A stretch of 64,000 nt of DNA. Source: Actinomyces gaoshouyii. GTDB lineage: Bacteria > Actinomycetota > Actinomycetes > Actinomycetales > Actinomycetaceae. The notes beneath the pieces were generated by a model that saw nothing but the letters and a program-made list of their open reading frames with translations, had not been told where the DNA came from and ran no database searches. This document shows, in pieces, positions 7,663 to 16,610 of this stretch. The first letter of the stretch is position 1, and every line of letters begins with the position of its first letter. The DNA lies in assembly GCF_002072175.1 (NCBI RefSeq), contig NZ_MVIV01000007.1, positions 62,001-126,000 on the forward strand. The letters are read 5' to 3'. The translations under genes were made by a program, and so were the position numbers.

Positions 7663-7722
7663 CGCATTACCCCTTCACTCAGTGCCGGCCACTGTCTTTC
7701 ATGACACACCGTTGCCGTGGAT

Positions 7723-7740
7723 CCTCGAGATTACTTGAGG
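7723..7740. promoter_or_regulatory. Imperfect palindrome between leuC and ltbR, candidate operator
   Basis: CCTCgAGattaCTtGAGG is an 18-bp imperfect palindrome in the 108-nt divergent intergenic region. Its position midway between leuC and the IclR regulator makes it a candidate LtbR operator. No binding data; inferred from symmetry and place only. Confidence 0.4.
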
Positions 7741-7770
7741 TCTCAGCCCTCGGGATGGCAGTATCAGATT

Positions 7771-8511
7771 ATGGACGAAGCGTTGGACTCAGCGACCAGC
7801 AGCGGTGTGGGCGTCATCGACAAGGCGGCCCTCGTCATGAGCGCCCTGGAGGCGGGCCCGGCGACCCTCGCCCAGCTCGTCTCCTCCACCCATCTGGCCC
7901 GGCCGACCGCCCATCGCATCGCCGTCGCCCTGGAGTACCACAGGCTGGTCTCACGCGACTCGCAGGGGCGCTTCATCCTCGGCCCGCGCCTGACTGAGCT
8001 CGCCTCGGCCGCCGGCGAGGACCACCTGCTCACGGCCGCCGGTCCGGTGCTGGCGGCCCTGCGGGACAAGACGCATGAGTCCGCCCAGCTCTACCGCCGT
8101 CAGGGGGATGTACGCGTGTGCGTGGCCAACGCGGAGCGCCCGATCGGCCTGCGCGACTCGATCCCGGTCGGGGCGACAATGTCCATGCTGGGCGGCTCGG
8201 GGGCGCAGGTGCTGCTGGCCTGGGAGGAGCCGGACAGGCTGCACCGGGGCCTGGTGGGGGCGCGCTTCAACGCCACAATGCTCTCAGCGGTGCGCCGACG
8301 CGGCTGGGCGCAGTCCGTGGGCGAGCGCGAGCCGGGCGTCGCCTCGGTCTCGGCCCCCGTGCGCGGCGCGAGCGGCAAGGTGATCGCGGCCGTGTCGATC
8401 TCCGGGCCGATCGAGCGCATGGGTCGCCAACCGGGCCGCGTGCACGGCGCCGTGGTCATGGCGGCCGCCCGCCGCCTGTCCGAGATCCTGCGCACCGCTG
8501 ACGAGGGCTGA
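7771..8511 (+). CDS. ltbR: IclR-family regulator of leucine biosynthesis (LtbR/NdgR-like)
   Basis: 246 residues. The N-terminal winged helix-turn-helix ('SGVGVIDKAALVMSALEAG', 'HLARPTAHRIAVALEYHRLV') and C-terminal IclR effector domain match the LtbR/NdgR subfamily, which in corynebacteria and streptomycetes controls leuCD. ATG 7771 is chosen because homologues begin with the short 'MD...SGVGV(I/L)DKA' stretch; the open frame extends 18 codons further upstream and no good ribosome binding site precedes either start. It is divergent from leuC. A role in repressing leuCD is inferred from family and context. Confidence 0.88.
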   Translation: MDEALDSATSSGVGVIDKAALVMSALEAGPATLAQLVSSTHLARPTAHRIAVALEYHRLVSRDSQGRFILGPRLTELASAAGEDHLLTAAGPVLAALRDKTHESAQLYRRQGDVRVCVANAERPIGLRDSIPVGATMSMLGGSGAQVLLAWEEPDRLHRGLVGARFNATMLSAVRRRGWAQSVGEREPGVASVSAPVRGASGKVIAAVSISGPIERMGRQPGRVHGAVVMAAARRLSEILRTADEG

Positions 8512-8522
8512 CCCCTCCCCCG

Positions 8523-8554
8523 CCGAGACCGGTCGAAAACAGCACCGAGACCGG
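8523..8554 (+). repeat. 32-bp inverted repeat, left copy, before helicase-nuclease gene
   Basis: The 32-bp sequence consists of two direct CCGAGACCGG boxes separated by 12 nt (TCGAAAACAGCA). It starts 12 nt after the ltbR stop. The reverse complement recurs at 15417-15448 with 30 of 32 bases identical, so the two copies bracket the helicase-nuclease gene as an inverted repeat. Confidence 0.9.
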
Positions 8555-8689
8555 CGCACGGTGCCGCCGGACCGGTCGGAGGCGATGGCGCCACCCCGGA
8601 GGCCCGCTCGCTCCCTCCGCTGTCCTCTGTTCCAGAGGGGACTCGCATGCGAAAATATGCACCCCCATTCCGATCGAGAGGACCGTCTC

Positions 8690-11600
8690 TTGCCTGATGA
8701 CCGACAGCCTCTCCTCCACGCCCTTCAGGCGCTCTCGGAAAGCCTCGGCCCCTACGTCCGCCGACGCCTGGCTGACGAGTACCCGAACCAGGACCGGTTA
8801 TCCCCGGCGCCGTGGGACGGGGCTCCGGGGGATGCCGACCTCGATGATCTCTCCACTCAGTTCTTCGCCCTGACCGGGCGCGACAGGAGCGGCAAGTCGA
8901 TCCTCAACGTCGAGTCAGGCCTGCGCAGCAGGATTCACGCCATCTGGATCGCGCGCAACCGGCTCGCCCACGGTGCGAGGCTTGAGCGCTCCGAGATGCT
9001 GCTGGCGCTGAGCGAGGTCGCTGAGGTCCTCCGGATCATCGGGGATGTCGAGGCATCCGACCGGGTCTCGCAGGAACTCGCGGCTCACGCGGCTGCCGGA
9101 ACCAGGATGGAGACATCGGGGGCGGAGCCCGCCGCCGGGCTCGAGTCCCTTGTCGAGCCGTTGGACGCTCCCCAAGCAGGTTCTCTCGAGGAGCCGGACG
9201 CAGCGCACGAGGAGCCGACGCCCTCGGACAAGCGCGCCGAGCGCACCGCGGCCGGGGCGGCTCCGGCCGTCTCCGACCCGCTGCCCCCTGCCCACGACGA
9301 GACGGCGCGCGTCGCGGCGCCCGAGCCACCGCCTCTGCCACGGCCGACTGGGACTGGGCTCGACCTCCTCGCGGTCTCCGTCGATGCTCCCCCGGTCGTT
9401 TCCTATGCCCACGCCGTCGCCGGGTCGCGCCTCGCCATGACCATCCACCTGCGGCCGGTCGATATCCGCGGCACCGACCTCGATGAACAGGGGGCTCGGC
9501 AGTGGGTTCCCCTCGAGGATGTCCGCGTCACCATCGGCGTCGAGGTTGATGGCGAGAGCGTCGCCTCCGGCCATCCTGTCATCCTGACCCGGCTCGGCGC
9601 GGAGGGGGAGGACCTCACCGTCAGCATCCTCCCGGAACGATCGGCCCTGCTCCAGGTCGACGCCCAGAGCCCCTCGCGCCTCCATCTGCTCCTCGAGTCG
9701 GCAGGCGCGCGACGCGACCTCTTCCTTGATGGTCCGGATGTCCTCACTCCGCGCCAGTGGGTGATGCGAGGCCGTCCCTCGGAGGCTGCCGCCACGTTGA
9801 CCGCTTTCGTCCAGCCCCAGCAGCCCAGGCTCGCGCCGCTCTGCTCCCAGGCCGCTCAGCTGCTCGGTACAGCCACGGGATCGCCGTCCCTCAACGGCTA
9901 CGAGGGCGGCCCCGCGAGGGTGAGCTCCATCGTCGCGGCAGTCTGCCGTGCCATCCAGGATGCCGGGGTGGCCTACGCGGTTCCGCCGACGAGCTGGGGG
10001 GAGTCGGGCCAGCGGGTGCGCACTGCGCAGGACGTGCTCGACAACCGTCTCGGCACCTGCCTCGACACCACGATCCTCCTGGCGAGCGCTCTGGAGTACC
10101 TCGAGATCGAGCCGCTGATCATCCTTCTTCCGGGACACGCTCTCCTTGGCTACTGGCGCACGCAGCGCCACCTCTCCGAAGATCTCACGATGCCCGGGTG
10201 GGAGCTGCTCAACCAGATCGACCTCGGAGAGATCCGCCTGGTCGAGACGACTCTCCTCACCGGCGAGGCCTCCGCCACCGCTGAACAGCTCCATCAAGCG
10301 GCCCGTCGGCTCATCGGCGTCGACGCCGCCGAGATCGATGTCGTGATCCCCGTGCGGGCGGCCCGCGAGCGCGGGGTCGTCCCCATGCCGTTGAGAACCC
10401 GTCACGAGGACGGCGAGATCGTTGAGAGCACCTATGTCGCCGCACCGCGACCGAACACTGTCCTACTGGCCGACGAGCTCCTCCGCACCACCCGGCCCCG
10501 TCCCACGCGGAGCAAGGCCCCGGATCGGGTCGAGGCCTGGAAGGCACGGCTCCTCGATCTCAGTCTGCGCAACCGCCTCATCAACTGCTCGGATAGCGCG
10601 ATCCACAGCCACAGGATCGTCGAGCTCGCGGTTCCCGAAGCGGTTATCGGATCCTTCGAAGACCTCGTGAATGCGGGGCGTGACATCACGCTGAGGCCCG
10701 CTGGCGAGCGGGCCGCCGAGGTGCGCCGCATCGGCGGCCTCTTCCGCACGGAACTCGATCCTCCGCAACTCGCTCCGCTGCTGGCGGACCACCGCGAGGT
10801 CGAGGTCGATCTGGGTGAGGGCACTTATGACCCGATCCTGCGCCGTCTGCGCTCCACCGCCAGGACCCTCGCCGAGGAGACCGGCGCCAACAACCTCTAC
10901 CTCGCCCTCGGCTCACTCGTCTGGAAGACGGGCGGCACGACCATCCGTTCCCCCCTCGTCTTCGTCCCCGTCGACCTCGAGCGCCGCTCAGCCCACAGCC
11001 CCTTCCGCCTGCGGATCGATCCCTCGGGCACAACCACCCCCAACTACTCCCTCGTCGAGCGCCTCCGGATCGATCTCGGCCTCGACCTCACGGAGCTGAG
11101 TGAGCCAGAGGAGGATGCCGCCGGCCTGAACCTCCCACGCCTCTTCGAGGTCGTGCGCCGAGTGCTCGCGGACAACCGCCTGCCCTTCCATGTCGAGGCG
11201 ACGACGTACCTCGGCATCTTCCAGTTCGGCACCTTCCGCCTGTGGAAGGACCTCGAGGAGTCGTGGAAGGAGATCGCCCGCAATCCCCTCGTCCGCCACC
11301 TCATCGAGACGCCCGACCAGCAGTTCGCCGACCCACAGGCGCATGCCCCGGTGGTCGGCCTCGAGCAACTCCTGCCCCGGCTCCCGGTGGCGGCTGACGC
11401 CTCGCAGGCCGAGGTCGTCGCCCAGGCGCTCAGCGGGCGCACGATCGTCGTCGAGGGCCCACCCGGCACCGGCAAGTCCCAGACGATCACCAACGTCATC
11501 GTCAGCGCCATCGCGCAAGGCCGTAAGGTTCTTTTCGTCGCCGAGAAGCAGGCGGCGCTCGAGGTCGTAGCCAGGCGCCTGCGCGACGCGGGCATCGGCG

Positions 11601-14600
11601 GGCTCCTCCTCGACCTCCATGATCGCAAGCAGTCCCCGGACGCCGTGCGTCGGAAGATCCTCGCCGCGATGGATCTCGAGGCCCACCCGGACCGCATCAC
11701 CTTGCAATCCCGGATGGCTCTGGCCGGAGCCGACAGCGCCAGACTCGCCGAGTACCGCGCCTCCCTGCACGGGCGCAGCCCGAGCGGCATGTCCTTCTAC
11801 AGTGCCCGAACGGCCGAGATCGCATACTCCGGTCACAGGGCCGGGAGCCTCACGATCACGCCCGCGCAGCTCGCCGCGATGACGGACGGCGACGTCGCTT
11901 CTCTGCGCACGAGCATCCCGTCCGTCGGCACGTGCCTGGACCGTTACCGCGACGTGCTCGTCGGCTCCGAGCCCGTGATCTCCCAGCCTCTCGACGACGT
12001 CTCCCTCTCAGAGGTCCTCGCCGCCACCGCGCGTTGGGATAGCGTCATCTCGAGCGGCGACGACGAGCTCCTGGCCGCCGTCGGGACAATGCCCGACCAT
12101 GAGTTGGAGACTGCCGCCCTCATCCTCGAAGATCCCGTCCTCGATACTCGTGTCCTCGACCTCATCGCGGACCCATCATGGGTGCGCGACGCCCAGTGGC
12201 TCCTCCAGCAGCTCGACGCCGAGGCCACCGACCTGCGCCCGGCCCTCACCTACTACCGGGAGAGCGTCCTCGACGAGCCCCTCGACGCGGTCAGGGAGAG
12301 CCTCATCAACGCCAAGCACGCCTTCTTCAGCAAGTCCAAGAAGGCCGAGAAAGCACTCGCCCGGCTCGCCGGCCACCGCAGCGGCAAGCCCATGCCCGAC
12401 GACGCCGCCGCGCTGCTCGGCATCGTCGACGAGCTCATCGCACTCGCCCGCCGCCGCGACCAACTGCGCGAGCGGCACGCGGCTCTACTGCCGTGGACCG
12501 CCGCGATGATCCGCAACTGGACGCCTTTCGACAGACCCGCGGCCGCAGCCTCCGGGGACAGGCTGCGCCAACTGCTCGAGCGGGCTCATCTGGCCGCCGC
12601 AGGGCAGCGCAGCCAGACGCGGATCATTGTCGCCGCATGCGCGATCCGGCCGGACCGCTCGGCAATCGCGGGATGGATGCGCGCGTACTCCCGGGCCCGT
12701 GAGGGACTGACGGCACTGAGCCGAGTCGGCATCGGGCGAGGTGCTATCGAGGCCCTCCTGCCGATGCCCGCCCCGCGCCGAGAACGGGTCCTCCGAGGCT
12801 GGAGCGAGTTCCTCAGCGCCGGGACGGAGTTCCGCCGCCTCGGCCTCGCATCCTGCCTCGACCAGCTCCGGCGAGGCGAGGTGCTGTCCTCGGATGCCTC
12901 CACCGCCCTCGAGATCGGTCTCATCCACGCCACGCTCGAATCGCAGCGGGAGCGAGGCCGCCTCGACGAGTTCGATGCCGAACGGCAGAACACCACCGTG
13001 GCCCAGTACGCAGCGGTGCTCGACGAGATCCGCAGTATGCTGCCCGAGGCGCTCGTCGAGGACGCTCTTATCGCCCGGGGCCACGCCCTGGCGAGTGAGG
13101 GCCTGCGACTGGCCAATCTGCGCACCGCTCTGGAGCGCAAGCGTAAGAAGCGGAGGATCCGCGATCTCATCGGTGAGTTCGGCGACCTCATCACCTCCCT
13201 CACCCCATGCGTCCTCGTCTCCCCGGACTCGGTGGCGCGGTTCTTCCCCGCCAACCGCCAGGACTTCGATCTCGTCGTCTTCGACGAGGCCTCCCAGATC
13301 ACGGTCGCCGCCGCCATCGGAGCCATGGGGCGCGGTCGTAGCGTCATCATCTGCGGGGACTCCAAGCAGATGCCTCCGACATCCTTCGCCGAGCTCTCAC
13401 GAGATGACGACGGCGAGGACGACATCGTCGACGAAGAGTCGATCCTCAGCGAGTGCGTGGCCGCGCACGTCCCACGGTTCTGGCTGTCCTGGCACTACCG
13501 CAGCAGGGTCGAATCCCTCATCGCCTTCTCCAACGCCGCGTACTACCAGGGCCGACTGTCCTCGTTCCCGAGCCCCAGGTCGGCCGAGCGGGACGATGGT
13601 CCCCATGGCTTCGGCATCAGCCTGCGCCACGTCGACGGCCACTTCGTGCGCAGCGTCCCGCGCGGGCAGTCGCGCAAGACCTATCGCACGAACCAGGCGG
13701 AGGCCGAGGCCATCGTTGAGGAGATCCAGCGCCGATTCGACGACGATCCCACCGATCCCGAGGGACCATCGGTCGGTGTCGTCACGTTCAACATCCAGCA
13801 GCGCGATCTCATCGAGGCCCGCCTGCGCGAGCTCGACGATCCGAGGATCACCGCCTCGCTCGACGCGGCCGGGGGTATCTTCGTCAAGAATCTCGAGAAC
13901 GTCCAAGGAGATGAGCGGGACGCGATCCTGTTCTCCGTCGCCTTCTCGGCGGGGGAGGACGGACAGGTCCCGCTCAACTTCGGGCCCCTCAATCGACATG
14001 GCGGGGAGCGCCGTCTCAACGTCGCGATCACGAGGGCGCGGGCCCAGGTCGTTCTCTTCTGCTCCTTCGACCCGGCATCGCTCCACGCGGAGCGCAGCAC
14101 CTCGGCGGGGCTGCAGGACCTCAAGCGCTACCTACTGCTCGCCGAGCACGGCACGGGAGCTCTGCCCGCGCGCGCGGCGGGTCAGGCGCGCCCCGACGGG
14201 CACCGCGAGGAGATCGCGGCAGCCCTGCGCGCACGGGGATTGGCCGTGCGCACCGACGTCGGCCTGTCCGACTTCCGCATCGACCTCGTCCTCGCCCCTG
14301 GTGATCGCCCCGACGAACCGAGGGTGGCCGTCATGCTCGACGGCCCGAACTGGGAGAGCCGGCGCACCTCCTATGACCGCGACGTGCTGCCGACGAGGGT
14401 ACTCGCGCGCATGATGCACTGGCCGGGAGTCGAGCGGATCTGGATGCCGGAGTGGCTCCGGGCCCCGGAGGCAGTCGTCTCCCGTCTTGTCGGCGCCGTC
14501 GAGCATACGCAGGACTACGGCAAGCAGCACGACGGCGCCGCTGCCCCGGGCCTGCCCGCACCCGCAGTCCCGGCCTCGATTCTGGATCTCGCCGCGGCCT

Positions 14601-15313
14601 CTAAGACCGGACCGGCTGACCGAGGCGAGGCCGGCCCAGTCCGGGCCTTGACGCCATTCGAACAGGCCGGCGCGTCGCCGCACGCCACGGCAGCGCCCGA
14701 CCACGCCGCCGCCGGGACCGCCACGGCAGCGCCAACGTCTCACGCGCGGCCGGAGCGGCGCAGGGATCTCAGCGCCGTCGTCGACTTCGTGCCGTACGAG
14801 CCGAACGAGCGCCTTGAGCGCGCGCTTCTCGACGAGGCGGCGACGAATCCCCGGGCCCGCGCGATCATACGTGAGGCAGCAGAGCGGATCTGCGAGCAGG
14901 AGTATCCGATCGCACGAGAGCGGCTGCTCAGCTTGGTCTGTTACGACTTCGGCATGCAGCAGGCACGAAGCGTGAGGAAACAGCAGATCCTCACCCTCAT
15001 CCGCAGCGCGCGAGTCTTCACCGACCCGGACGGCTTCGTCTGGCCGGAGGGCGTTGATCCGGCTGGTCTGACCGGCTACCGCCGGTATCCGTACGACTTC
15101 GTCGCCATCGAGGAGATCCATCCGCGCGAGCTGGACAACTACGTGCGAGAGCGCATGGGGGCAGAGGGCGGGCTCGATGACGAGCAGTTGCTGCACGACC
15201 TGCTCGCAGGGCTGTCGTTATCGACGCACCGCAAACTCACCGCATCCGTGCGCCACATGCTCACCCAGTCGATGGCGCGGGTCGGGGGGCGGGGGCGCTA
15301 CCTGTCGGACTGA
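8690..15313 (+). CDS. HEPN / transglutaminase-like / DUF4011 / SF1 helicase / PD-(D/E)XK nuclease / DUF3320 fusion; candidate anti-phage defence protein
   Basis: 2207 residues from TTG 8690, preferred because AGAGGA lies 7 nt upstream; ATG 8657 is an alternative without a properly spaced site. Domains in order: N-terminal HEPN/Swt1-like helical domain with the RX4H motif RNRLAH (R89-H94); Ala/Pro/Glu-rich linker (about 130-225); beta-rich region; transglutaminase-like fold with Cys457 (LGTCLDTT) and His483 (PGHALLGYW); DUF4011 near 612 (WKARLLDLSLRNRLIN); superfamily 1 helicase with Walker A GPPGTGKS (K929), Walker B VFDEAS (D1532, E1533) and motif VI (NVAITRARAQ, about 1782); Vsr/DUF559-like nuclease (FRIDL D1865, VMLDGPNW D1884); C-terminal DUF3320 (about 2040-2190). 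The HEPN-helicase-nuclease combination matches the Hhe-type defence proteins. All key motifs are intact. No partner gene is adjacent. Confidence 0.85.
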   Translation: MPDDRQPLLHALQALSESLGPYVRRRLADEYPNQDRLSPAPWDGAPGDADLDDLSTQFFALTGRDRSGKSILNVESGLRSRIHAIWIARNRLAHGARLERSEMLLALSEVAEVLRIIGDVEASDRVSQELAAHAAAGTRMETSGAEPAAGLESLVEPLDAPQAGSLEEPDAAHEEPTPSDKRAERTAAGAAPAVSDPLPPAHDETARVAAPEPPPLPRPTGTGLDLLAVSVDAPPVVSYAHAVAGSRLAMTIHLRPVDIRGTDLDEQGARQWVPLEDVRVTIGVEVDGESVASGHPVILTRLGAEGEDLTVSILPERSALLQVDAQSPSRLHLLLESAGARRDLFLDGPDVLTPRQWVMRGRPSEAAATLTAFVQPQQPRLAPLCSQAAQLLGTATGSPSLNGYEGGPARVSSIVAAVCRAIQDAGVAYAVPPTSWGESGQRVRTAQDVLDNRLGTCLDTTILLASALEYLEIEPLIILLPGHALLGYWRTQRHLSEDLTMPGWELLNQIDLGEIRLVETTLLTGEASATAEQLHQAARRLIGVDAAEIDVVIPVRAARERGVVPMPLRTRHEDGEIVESTYVAAPRPNTVLLADELLRTTRPRPTRSKAPDRVEAWKARLLDLSLRNRLINCSDSAIHSHRIVELAVPEAVIGSFEDLVNAGRDITLRPAGERAAEVRRIGGLFRTELDPPQLAPLLADHREVEVDLGEGTYDPILRRLRSTARTLAEETGANNLYLALGSLVWKTGGTTIRSPLVFVPVDLERRSAHSPFRLRIDPSGTTTPNYSLVERLRIDLGLDLTELSEPEEDAAGLNLPRLFEVVRRVLADNRLPFHVEATTYLGIFQFGTFRLWKDLEESWKEIARNPLVRHLIETPDQQFADPQAHAPVVGLEQLLPRLPVAADASQAEVVAQALSGRTIVVEGPPGTGKSQTITNVIVSAIAQGRKVLFVAEKQAALEVVARRLRDAGIGGLLLDLHDRKQSPDAVRRKILAAMDLEAHPDRITLQSRMALAGADSARLAEYRASLHGRSPSGMSFYSARTAEIAYSGHRAGSLTITPAQLAAMTDGDVASLRTSIPSVGTCLDRYRDVLVGSEPVISQPLDDVSLSEVLAATARWDSVISSGDDELLAAVGTMPDHELETAALILEDPVLDTRVLDLIADPSWVRDAQWLLQQLDAEATDLRPALTYYRESVLDEPLDAVRESLINAKHAFFSKSKKAEKALARLAGHRSGKPMPDDAAALLGIVDELIALARRRDQLRERHAALLPWTAAMIRNWTPFDRPAAAASGDRLRQLLERAHLAAAGQRSQTRIIVAACAIRPDRSAIAGWMRAYSRAREGLTALSRVGIGRGAIEALLPMPAPRRERVLRGWSEFLSAGTEFRRLGLASCLDQLRRGEVLSSDASTALEIGLIHATLESQRERGRLDEFDAERQNTTVAQYAAVLDEIRSMLPEALVEDALIARGHALASEGLRLANLRTALERKRKKRRIRDLIGEFGDLITSLTPCVLVSPDSVARFFPANRQDFDLVVFDEASQITVAAAIGAMGRGRSVIICGDSKQMPPTSFAELSRDDDGEDDIVDEESILSECVAAHVPRFWLSWHYRSRVESLIAFSNAAYYQGRLSSFPSPRSAERDDGPHGFGISLRHVDGHFVRSVPRGQSRKTYRTNQAEAEAIVEEIQRRFDDDPTDPEGPSVGVVTFNIQQRDLIEARLRELDDPRITASLDAAGGIFVKNLENVQGDERDAILFSVAFSAGEDGQVPLNFGPLNRHGGERRLNVAITRARAQVVLFCSFDPASLHAERSTSAGLQDLKRYLLLAEHGTGALPARAAGQARPDGHREEIAAALRARGLAVRTDVGLSDFRIDLVLAPGDRPDEPRVAVMLDGPNWESRRTSYDRDVLPTRVLARMMHWPGVERIWMPEWLRAPEAVVSRLVGAVEHTQDYGKQHDGAAAPGLPAPAVPASILDLAAASKTGPADRGEAGPVRALTPFEQAGASPHATAAPDHAAAGTATAAPTSHARPERRRDLSAVVDFVPYEPNERLERALLDEAATNPRARAIIREAAERICEQEYPIARERLLSLVCYDFGMQQARSVRKQQILTLIRSARVFTDPDGFVWPEGVDPAGLTGYRRYPYDFVAIEEIHPRELDNYVRERMGAEGGLDDEQLLHDLLAGLSLSTHRKLTASVRHMLTQSMARVGGRGRYLSD

Positions 15314-15416: not shown

Positions 15417-15448
15417 CCGGTCTCGCCGCTGTTTTCGACCGGTCTCGG
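15417..15448 (-). repeat. 32-bp inverted repeat, right copy, in the pimB-like promoter region
   Basis: Reverse complement of the element at 8523-8554 with two mismatches at positions 22-23 of the unit. It ends 22 nt before the downstream ATG and 10 nt before its -10 hexamer, so it covers the -35 region of the mannosyltransferase gene. Confidence 0.9.
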
Positions 15449-15470: not shown

Positions 15471-16610
15471 ATGCGCCGGACACTTCTCGTCACGAACGAT
15501 TTCCCGCCCGTCGTGGGCGGGATCCAGTCCTACCTCGACGACTACGCCCGCCGCCTGCCGCCCTCGGATCTGACCGTCCTGGCCTCCACTCCCCCCGAGG
15601 GCCCCGAGACCGCCGCGGCCTTCGACTCCGAGGTTCCCTTCGACGTCGTCCGCATGCCCACCCGCATGCTCCTGCCCACGCCGGAGGTGCGGAGCAGGAT
15701 GCGGGGGATCATCGCCGAGCGCGGCATCGAGACCGTCTGGTTCGGCGCCGCCGCACCGCTCGGGCTGCTCGGCCGCGCCGCGAAGCGGGCCGGGGCGAGC
15801 CGTGTCATCGCCACGACTCACGGGCACGAAGTCGGCTGGTCCATGCTACCGGGCTCCCGCCAGCTCCTGCACCGCATCCTCCGCGACGCCGACGTCGTCA
15901 CCTACATCTCCGAGTACACGCTCGGCCGCCTGCGCCCCTTCATACCATCGGGCACGATCACCGCCCATCTTCCCAGCGGCATCGACGTCGACCGCTTCCG
16001 CCCCGATCCCGCCGCCCGCACCGCGCTTCGCGCCCGCTACCGGCTGGGGGGCGCCCCGACGGTGGTGTGCGTGTCCCGGCTCGTGGCCCGCAAGGGCCAG
16101 GACTCCCTCATCGAGGCCTGGCCGCGCGTGGTGGAGCACGTCCCGGGGGCCCGCCTGGTCATCGTGGGGTGGGGCTCCTACGCGCGCCGCCTGGCGCTCC
16201 TCAAGCGTCGCTCCTCCGCCCGTGATTCCATCATCCTGACCGGCAAGGTCCCCTACGACGAACTGCCCGGGCATGTGGCCATGGGGGACGTGTTCGCCAT
16301 GCCCTGCCGTACGCGCGGTGGAGGCCTCGACGTCGAGGGCCTGGGCATTGTGTTCCTCGAGGCCTCCGCGGCGGGACTACCCGTCATCGCGGGGACCAGC
16401 GGCGGTGCGCCCGAGACCGTCGTTGAGGGCGTGACCGGGAACGTGGTCGACGGGCGCGACCAGGACGCGCTCGTGGAAGCGATTATCGGCCAGCTCTCCG
16501 ATGCCGATGCGCGCGCCCGGATGGGCGCCGCCGGCAGGGAGCTCATGATCGGTCGCTGGACGTGGCCGTCCCTGGTGGAACGGCTGGTCCGCGCGATCGA
16601 CGAGCGCTGA
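15471..16610 (+). CDS. GT4 glycosyltransferase, PimB-like phosphatidylinositol mannosyltransferase
   Basis: 379 residues, GT-B fold. The N-terminus 'LLVTNDFPPVVGGIQSYL' and 'THGHEVGWSMLPGSRQLL' are typical of actinobacterial PimB, which adds the second mannose to phosphatidylinositol mannosides on the cytoplasmic face of the membrane. The C-terminal nucleotide-sugar domain carries 'VSRLVARKGQD', 'VIVGWGSY' and the E-x7-E type segment 'EGLGIVFLEASAAGLPVI'. It has its own leaderless promoter and is convergent with nrdR. Other GDP-mannose-dependent GT4 activities remain possible, so no symbol is given. Confidence 0.85.
   Translation: MRRTLLVTNDFPPVVGGIQSYLDDYARRLPPSDLTVLASTPPEGPETAAAFDSEVPFDVVRMPTRMLLPTPEVRSRMRGIIAERGIETVWFGAAAPLGLLGRAAKRAGASRVIATTHGHEVGWSMLPGSRQLLHRILRDADVVTYISEYTLGRLRPFIPSGTITAHLPSGIDVDRFRPDPAARTALRARYRLGGAPTVVCVSRLVARKGQDSLIEAWPRVVEHVPGARLVIVGWGSYARRLALLKRRSSARDSIILTGKVPYDELPGHVAMGDVFAMPCRTRGGGLDVEGLGIVFLEASAAGLPVIAGTSGGAPETVVEGVTGNVVDGRDQDALVEAIIGQLSDADARARMGAAGRELMIGRWTWPSLVERLVRAIDER

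Follow-up and report, generated by a model that had tools for sequence, protein, structure and literature searches.

The window analysed here, a stretch of 64,000 nucleotides from Actinomyces gaoshouyii, carries a giant gene on the forward strand (8690–15313) that starts with TTG and codes for 2207 residues, predicted to comprise a HEPN domain, a beta-sandwich, a transglutaminase fold, DUF4011, an SF1 helicase, a Vsr-like nuclease and a winged helix. The frame is uninterrupted over its 2207 codons, as the initial annotation had it, and R89, H94, C457, H483, K929 and D1884 all lie where that annotation placed them; its account of HEPN, transglutaminase-like, helicase and nuclease domains in one frame is likewise supported. 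The stop-free frame extends upstream of the TTG at 8690 and offers alternative starts at GTG 8561 and ATG 8657. We prefer the TTG because a Shine–Dalgarno-like AGAGGA (8677–8682, forward strand) lies 7 nt upstream and because the A. israelii orthologue has an ATG at the aligned place. The neighbours, named from their translations, are both on the forward strand: an IclR-type regulator to the left (7717–8511), present in 49 of 49 genus genomes, and a glycosyltransferase to the right (15471–16610), found in 27 of the 49 at E 1e-60. A dispersed repeat, GAGACCGGTCGAAAACAG, has one copy left of the gene (8525–8542, forward strand) and an inverted copy to its right (15429–15446, reverse strand).

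Within the gene, all features are on the forward strand. The HEPN (Swt1-like) domain (8690–9067, residues 1–126) is helical in the predicted model, with R89 at 8954–8956 and H94 at 8969–8971. It is followed by a linker (9068–9355, residues 127–222) that is mostly of low confidence (pLDDT < 50 at residues 138–218 of the predicted model) and fast evolving (dN/dS 1.02 at residues 126–222), and then, in the predicted model, by a beta-sandwich (9356–9763, residues 223–358) immediately N-terminal to the transglutaminase core. The transglutaminase-fold, protease-like domain (9764–10378, residues 359–563) contains C457 (10058–10060), H483 (10136–10138) and E519 (10244–10246). DUF4011 (10547–11065, residues 620–792) is one of the Pfam families above cut-off, together with AAA_11, AAA_12 and MTES_1575; DUF3320 is absent from the Pfam matches of the window protein at E up to 1 and is annotated on many plasmid relatives. 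The dN/dS of the whole gene is 0.26.

The SF1 helicase is divided between an N-terminal part with the Walker A lysine K929 (11396–11809) and a C-terminal part with the Walker B DE and motifs V/VI (12965–14074), separated by a region (11810–12964, residues 1041–1425) without counterpart in the short-form paralogues, a subclade of Actinomyces discussed below. When solved structures were searched with the whole protein sequence, helicases were matched and the motor resembled those of the SMUBP-2/SEN1/UPF1 type; nothing convincing was obtained for the transglutaminase or C-terminal parts. The Walker A lysine is kept in 65 of 67 proteins, and helicase dN/dS is 0.09–0.11 against A. denticolens. The MTES_1575 (Vsr-like) nuclease (14201–14497, residues 1838–1936) is in line with the predicted fold, residues 1834–1942 matching 3hrl (Z 10.4), I-Bth0305I (9.2) and Vsr (7.5), and residues 2051–2121 (14840–15052) match cullin winged helices with Z up to 8.2; these Z values are moderate. 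D1865 and D1884 are invariant in all 63 alignment rows with a letter there, and nuclease dN/dS is 0.20 against A. denticolens. The window protein has M just before the nuclease L-D-G; across 63 rows that residue is M or L in 50 and Glu in 9. Since the acid at this position is mostly replaced, the nuclease is only putatively active.

The transglutaminase-like assignment also held up. A profile of the region built solely from 11 plasmid relatives (proteobacterial/Bacteroides) gives the window protein 173.8 bits, the best of 500 shuffles reaching 3.9, and residues 359–581 of the predicted fold match transglutaminases and the putative protease 3kd4 with moderate Z values of 8.8–9.1. To C457 and H483 our analysis adds a third site residue, E519; the hallmarks of transglutaminase-like cysteine peptidases, namely the fold with a Cys, a His and an acidic residue, are thus present in sequence and predicted fold. 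We compared 68 proteins, having dropped two short G012 fragments, a Prevotella protein (L011), a fragmented plasmid homologue (L042) and, for both L008 and L057, the second frame. Of the 46 proteins outside the short-form group, 43 have an intact Cys-His-acid site. All 22 short forms have lost the Cys and 21 have lost the His; most of them keep HEPN, and 19 still have an acidic residue (D) at the third position. The idea that the short forms lost the three site residues together was accordingly rejected. On a tree of 67 of the 68 proteins, the site losses amount to about one event plus three. The domain has a dN/dS of 0.18 against A. denticolens and 0.20 against A. israelii, and in the A. denticolens comparison the site is about as constrained as the nuclease (0.18 versus 0.20). 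We also rejected the idea that HEPN and the transglutaminase site strictly compensate for each other: both are intact in 10 proteins, and the 25 site-lost proteins comprise 14 with an intact HEPN motif, 8 with a broken one and 3 with no HEPN.

HEPN_Swt1 (PF18731) gives the window protein 20.3 bits (E 7e-4), below the 27.5-bit cut-off; among N-terminal pieces of ten relatives, 6 pass (32–85 bits), one short form falls below (20.0) and three have no HEPN match. A profile from 9 distant relatives only, which is the independent test, gives 20.7 bits on residues 1–130 (best of 500 shuffles 6.6) and 11.8 bits on the whole protein; A. denticolens scores 9.2 bits and A. israelii is not among the matches listed. 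The first HEPN profile missed L099 and also L091, L097, L098 and L100, which Pfam found. A rebuilt profile recovers all of these; its E-values are not independent, as it includes most of the proteins found by it. The R-x4-6-H motif of HEPN RNases is in the aligned place (R89, H94). The structural matches listed for the predicted model include no HEPN, which is no evidence against the domain. Among the four nearest orthologues only the window protein's HEPN appears intact: in its own branch A. israelii has Arg in place of the HEPN His, A. oricola lacks the domain, and A. denticolens has no in-frame ATG, GTG or TTG before about residue 45. Of the catalytic domains, HEPN is also under the weakest constraint (dN/dS 0.52 against A. 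denticolens, 0.50 against A. israelii), and in one relative (L079) an RNase T module stands in its place. The initial annotation's pair of effectors, RNase and DNase, therefore fares poorly, and the pattern suggests that HEPN is an optional, labile part and that the protease-like and DNA-cutting parts matter most.

The gene is an accessory insert: in most of the other genomes examined, its two neighbours lie side by side. In 26 Actinomyces genomes both neighbours lie on one contig; the gene occupies the junction in 2 of these, the junction is ≤169 bp in 19, and one (G015) is a deletion scar retaining the gene's 3′ remnant. Two more orthologues are on other contigs, and the junctions of their own genomes are empty. 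The initial annotation had set the gene amid housekeeping genes; by the junction survey the locus is an insertion, and a core housekeeping gene was rejected. The transglutaminase region was detected in 20 of the 49 genus genomes, in 35 of 213 family genomes (genus included) and in 14 of 394 class genomes (the window's genome included), with partial matches in 385 plasmid records. Two phage records were matched, one an unverified faecal contig (61% match) and the other over 69 residues, and no relative was confirmed when viral contigs were scanned by pattern. For defence context we picked 191 flanking frames, excluding those of >600 aa, and scanned 129; the other 62 were from A. denticolens (L005), plasmid, phage and near-duplicate loci, with some single frames of other loci. 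Little defence signal was seen in the flanks, 12 PADLOC families each being matched by at most 5 of the 129 frames, a figure that has no control set.

The sequence itself shows the parts with their candidate catalytic residues, the way these are conserved, and a gene that behaves as an accessory element in genomes; we think the product is probably a single-polypeptide anti-phage protein resembling ProA with an extra N-terminal HEPN. The defence reading of the initial annotation is supported in that the nearest curated models are anti-phage and the distribution is sporadic and insertion-like. In such a protein the winged helix and SF1 motor would find and thread invading DNA, perhaps recognising unusual structures or ends, and cutting would fall to the Vsr-like nuclease. 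The C457-H483-E519 site may be a cysteine protease or transferase, its simplest role being a motor-triggered switch that cleaves its own chain or a partner. HEPN would be an optional RNase, able to halt the cell should cutting of the DNA fail, and appears to be undergoing loss in the window protein's branch.

The initial annotation and PMC3710099 envisage a multi-effector suicide protein in which the DNase acts first, the HEPN RNase is the main fallback killer and the protease a further line. R89 and H94 are intact in the window protein, and 10 of 16 proteins that carry HEPN and lie outside the short-form group keep the pair. Among the 21 short forms with HEPN, 14 keep both residues, and all of these lack the transglutaminase Cys. 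However, profile search detected no HEPN in 31 of the 68 proteins, and the defects in A. israelii, A. oricola and A. denticolens and the HEPN dN/dS of 0.52 also argue against a main killer, so that we regard this account as rather unlikely.

We give still less credence to a housekeeping helicase-nuclease of DNA repair or replication forks with no defence role, which seems improbable. It could appeal to the SMUBP-2-like motor, to a chromosomal position between ordinary genes with few defence neighbours, to a ‘DNA repair exonuclease’ gene adjoining the homologue in 3 of the 12 plasmid loci read (of the 385 records), and to Pseudomonas aeruginosa, in which, according to PMC10250203, all isolates carry a DUF4011 gene that lies beside a defence hotspot. 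Because that gene is universal there, the DUF4011 family name alone is no proof of defence. Nevertheless, most genomes lack the present gene, 2 of the 26 junctions hold it, it has been deleted in a close relative, and homologues occur at different sites. The G015 scar might also be taken, with an A. oricola orthologue lacking both ends, an A. jensenii homologue split over two frames and an S. georgiae homologue without HEPN and the Cys-His pair, as a mark of a decaying, non-functional remnant; against this the window gene is open throughout, with the low dN/dS noted above and about 0.1 in the helicase, and decay is very improbable here.

Returning to the anti-phage reading, the point of interest is what the transglutaminase-fold site does in one-protein phage defence. 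We tentatively propose, as a doubtful extension, that the site is a conserved switch on a helicase-nuclease scaffold whose N-terminal effector, here HEPN, can be exchanged: the protease would cut the flexible linker (127–222), freeing or arming that effector, and one Actinomyces subclade would have lost the Cys-His pair and run on HEPN without it. The near-complete loss of Cys and His from short forms that mostly keep HEPN favours the switch, and the RNase T module of L079 favours an exchangeable effector. The HEPN-to-transglutaminase spacing, with medians of 162 residues in 15 site-intact and 99.5 in 22 site-lost proteins, is a further point in favour. The proposal is weakened by the acidic third position retained in most short forms, by the small number of independent losses, and by the spacings having ranges that overlap (99–213 and 76–264) and follow the tree. 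Natural versions of the scaffold with and without the site exist in one genus, one of each in the window's own genome, where a paralogue on contig 16 lacks the Cys-His pair and has an intact HEPN motif, and such pairs would allow a direct test of the function of the protease-like domain.

The closest curated family is the anti-phage ProA (NCBIfam NF058533), whose model gives 1433.5 bits, below its cut-off of 1500, in a nearly full-length alignment of residues 276–2173 to profile positions 26–1897 of 1903. The alignment takes in the transglutaminase domain, and the HEPN at the N-terminus of the window protein is extra; a HEPN-bearing actinobacterial relative (L083) passes the cut-off with 1743 bits. 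In the open literature searched we found no published account of ProA as an anti-phage protein. The PADLOC candidate PDC-S37 gives 839 bits over residues 612–2191. Hhe reportedly protects E. coli against phage, and it shares the DUF4011-helicase-nuclease parts with the window protein. The Hhe type assigned in the initial annotation is rejected: NF042953 gives 541.3 bits against a cut-off of 2000, well short of the ProA score, and its best-matching stretch starts no earlier than residue 1363. Hhe, a family also modelled in PADLOC, is named ‘Gao Hhe’ in PMC13249269. The same architecture as ours was described in 2013 (PMC3710099), where the MTES_1575-type giant HEPN proteins share HEPN of the Swt1/Abi2 group, a transglutaminase-like domain, an SF-I helicase, a novel Vsr-family REase and a C-terminal wHTH overlapping DUF3320, with no essential difference from the window protein. 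That type is further marked by having no DNA-modification gene alongside, a feature for which the neighbouring translations in the window were read by eye only. The 2013 paper proposes that such proteins restrict DNA, kill the cell through HEPN and cleave protein, so that the transglutaminase-like domain, called undescribed in the initial annotation, already had a guessed role (a Brachybacterium protein is mentioned). With the domain combination in print since 2013 and the core near a named anti-phage family, the gene itself is no discovery; what we add is E519 as a third member of the site, the pattern of conservation among relatives and the place of insertion. The gated nuclease-protease pairs of PMC12799240 likewise couple a protease and a nuclease in one defence system but differ in having trypsin- or caspase-type proteases and a nuclease from a separate gene; we claim no sequence relation, and by analogy they could serve as a model for the possible role of the protease-like site.

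The giant gene is a single open frame running from a TTG at 8690 to 15313 on the forward strand (2207 codons) in a window of Actinomyces DNA with 71% GC, and its product is 87% identical to its nearest named orthologue, from A. denticolens. The residue numbers given in the initial annotation for this protein proved correct on the translation, and E519, within V-E-T-T, completes the transglutaminase site as its third residue after C457 and H483. Pfam places DUF4011 (residues 620–792), AAA_11/AAA_12 and MTES_1575 (1840–1935) above cut-off, and HEPN_Swt1 (11–118) below its own. With a profile of the transglutaminase region built without actinobacterial members, the protein scores 173.8 bits against 3.9 for the best of 500 shuffles. 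A HEPN profile from nine distant relatives gives 20.7 bits with residues 1–130, where the best of 500 shuffles reaches 6.6; with the whole protein as input the score falls to 11.8 bits, and the A. denticolens protein scores 9.2.

The structure model of residues 1–627, made from six sequences (mean pLDDT 73), has helices at 6–140, a low-confidence stretch at 138–218, and then a beta-sandwich and an alpha/beta core. At E ≤ 0.001 Foldseek found seven matches, every one a human transglutaminase; the lowest E is 2.6e-5, and TM over the whole model is low. VIA-align 2 places residues 359–581 on transglutaminases and the putative protease 3kd4 (Z 8.8–9.1, rmsd 3.2–4.4, 135–172 aligned), and residues 216–358 on unrelated beta-sandwich proteins with similar Z. 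The model of residues 1790–2207 (mean pLDDT 65) had no Foldseek match at E 0.001; VIA-align 2 matched it to 3hrl (Z 10.4), the I-Bth0305I catalytic domain (9.2), Vsr (7.5) and cullin winged helices (up to 8.2).

Of 49 Actinomyces genomes, 20 carry the transglutaminase region, at 28 places in all (four above 60% identity, including the window's own); so do 35 of 213 family genomes (the genus included) and 14 of 394 class genomes. Among plasmids, 385 records match the giant protein partially, none covering 80%; three plasmid relatives (L044, L106 and L113) adjoin a 'DNA repair exonuclease' gene and a gene for an AAA, YhaN or DNA-binding protein. The comparison set of 68 proteins, that is, the window's own with a first set of 31 and a second of 36, takes in 26 of the 28 genus places. 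The tree used 810 columns outside the HEPN, transglutaminase and nuclease regions and 67 rows, one fragment being left out; the method was a quick one, with SH-aLRT support only and long-branch warnings among distant rows. The window protein groups with those of A. denticolens, A. oricola and A. israelii. The surrounding clade of 29 rows (support 100) also includes a 21-row subclade of shorter Actinomyces paralogues (support 100). These short forms lack the 385-residue segment between the helicase parts (window 11810–12964, residues 1041–1425), a fast-evolving region with dN/dS of 0.27–0.51.

Of the 46 proteins outside the short forms, 43 retain a complete Cys-His-acid site, with Glu as the acid in 37 and Asp in 6; the exceptions are proteins L009, L087 and L091. 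All 22 short forms (fragment counted) have lost the Cys and 21 of them the His; at the third position 19 have Asp, 2 Tyr and 1 Asn. The nuclease residues D1865 and D1884 are kept in 63 of the 63 rows with a letter at the position and D1896 in 61 of 64, and the Walker A Lys in 65 of 67. A rebuilt profile finds HEPN in 16 of the 46 (R and H present in 10) and in 21 of the 22 short forms (both present in 14). In one relative, L079:8670–10229 (−), the place of HEPN before the transglutaminase domain is taken by an RNase T exonuclease (E 6e-22) together with a BRCT match below threshold. The window's genome carries one giant protein of each type. Its short-form paralogue, on contig 16 (L049, 11285–16831 (−)), has lost the transglutaminase Cys and His and kept the HEPN R and H; a copy of the dispersed repeat described below sits ahead of HEPN, within the beginning of its open frame. 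Three loci (L051, L052 and L057) are tandem pairs of short-form genes. The HEPN His is missing from the second copy in every pair, and two of the three first copies retain R and H, possibly a pairing of active with inactive HEPN.

Constraint along the window gene is uneven. Against A. denticolens, dN/dS is 0.52 for HEPN, 0.18 for transglutaminase, 0.09–0.11 for helicase, 0.20 for nuclease and 0.37 for the winged-helix region; against A. israelii it is 0.50, 0.20 and 0.30 for HEPN, transglutaminase and nuclease, and against A. oricola 0.42 for nuclease. In A. israelii an Arg replaces the HEPN motif His. The A. oricola orthologue has no HEPN in frame, nor in six frames of 2.6 kb around the gene start, and is also without the winged helix. 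That of A. denticolens has no in-frame ATG, GTG or TTG before about residue 45. The argument that HEPN is dispensable is weaker because some of these genes may be damaged.

The giant gene lies between an IclR-type regulator (7717–8511) and a glycosyltransferase (15471–16610), both named from their translations. All 49 genus genomes have the regulator, and 27 of the 49 have the glycosyltransferase (E ≤ 1e-60); the pair shares a contig in 26 genomes and is split between two contigs in genome G028. From gaps worked out by hand from neighbour coordinates, 2 of the 26 junctions (those of the window's genome and of G006, A. denticolens judging from frame length) span 6.96 kb and contain the giant gene, 19 span at most 169 bp and five 0.66–4.2 kb. 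Translation reading alone suggests a P450-like gene in two of these five, a Mrr-like nuclease among other frames in one (L069, genome G033) and a small Vsr/DUF559-like frame in one. The fifth, in genome G015 (L073), retains 359 bp with 85% identity to the end of the giant gene and the adjoining DNA, and in A. oricola and A. israelii the orthologues lie on other contigs and the junctions are empty. The junction is therefore a variable site and the giant gene a losable insert.

Within the 64-kb window the repeat GAGACCGGTCGAAAACAG (≤2 mismatches) occurs only at 8525–8542 (+) and 15429–15446 (−), two inverted copies immediately flanking the giant gene. Its 16-base core (≤1 mismatch) has 86 copies in the window's genome, 89 in G006, 153 in G015, 6 in G042 and none in G011 and G033, against a control of 0 in all six; several are inverted pairs 52 bases apart. 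At L073, positions 1514–2117 hold arrays of the 18-base repeat around what is left of the deleted giant gene, with four direct and four inverted copies (≤2 mismatches) at 22-base spacing. The L069 junction also has copies of another repeat, GAGAACGGTACTTGTTCGTC.

Among curated models the protein comes closest to NCBI's anti-phage ProA, at 1433.5 bits; as the cut-off is 1500, it counts by NCBI's rule as ProA-like, not ProA. The next, Hhe, gives 541 bits (cut-off 2000). ProA scores are 2372 and 2179 for two plasmid proteins, 1743 for a HEPN-bearing actinobacterial relative and 1098 for a short form. No paper describing ProA was found in the open literature searched. The best supported reading, in which we infer every activity, is a helicase-nuclease with a conserved protease-like cysteine site: an ATP-driven helicase-nuclease would recognise invading DNA, the transglutaminase-fold site would be a conserved regulatory or effector protease, and HEPN an optional RNase arm. 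The same full domain set appears in a 2013 study (PMC3710099), which proposes DNA recognition by the wHTH, a suicide RNase role for HEPN and possible protein cleavage by the transglutaminase domain. PMC12799240 provides a precedent for phage defence in which a protease arms a nuclease, with enzymes unrelated to those of the giant protein.
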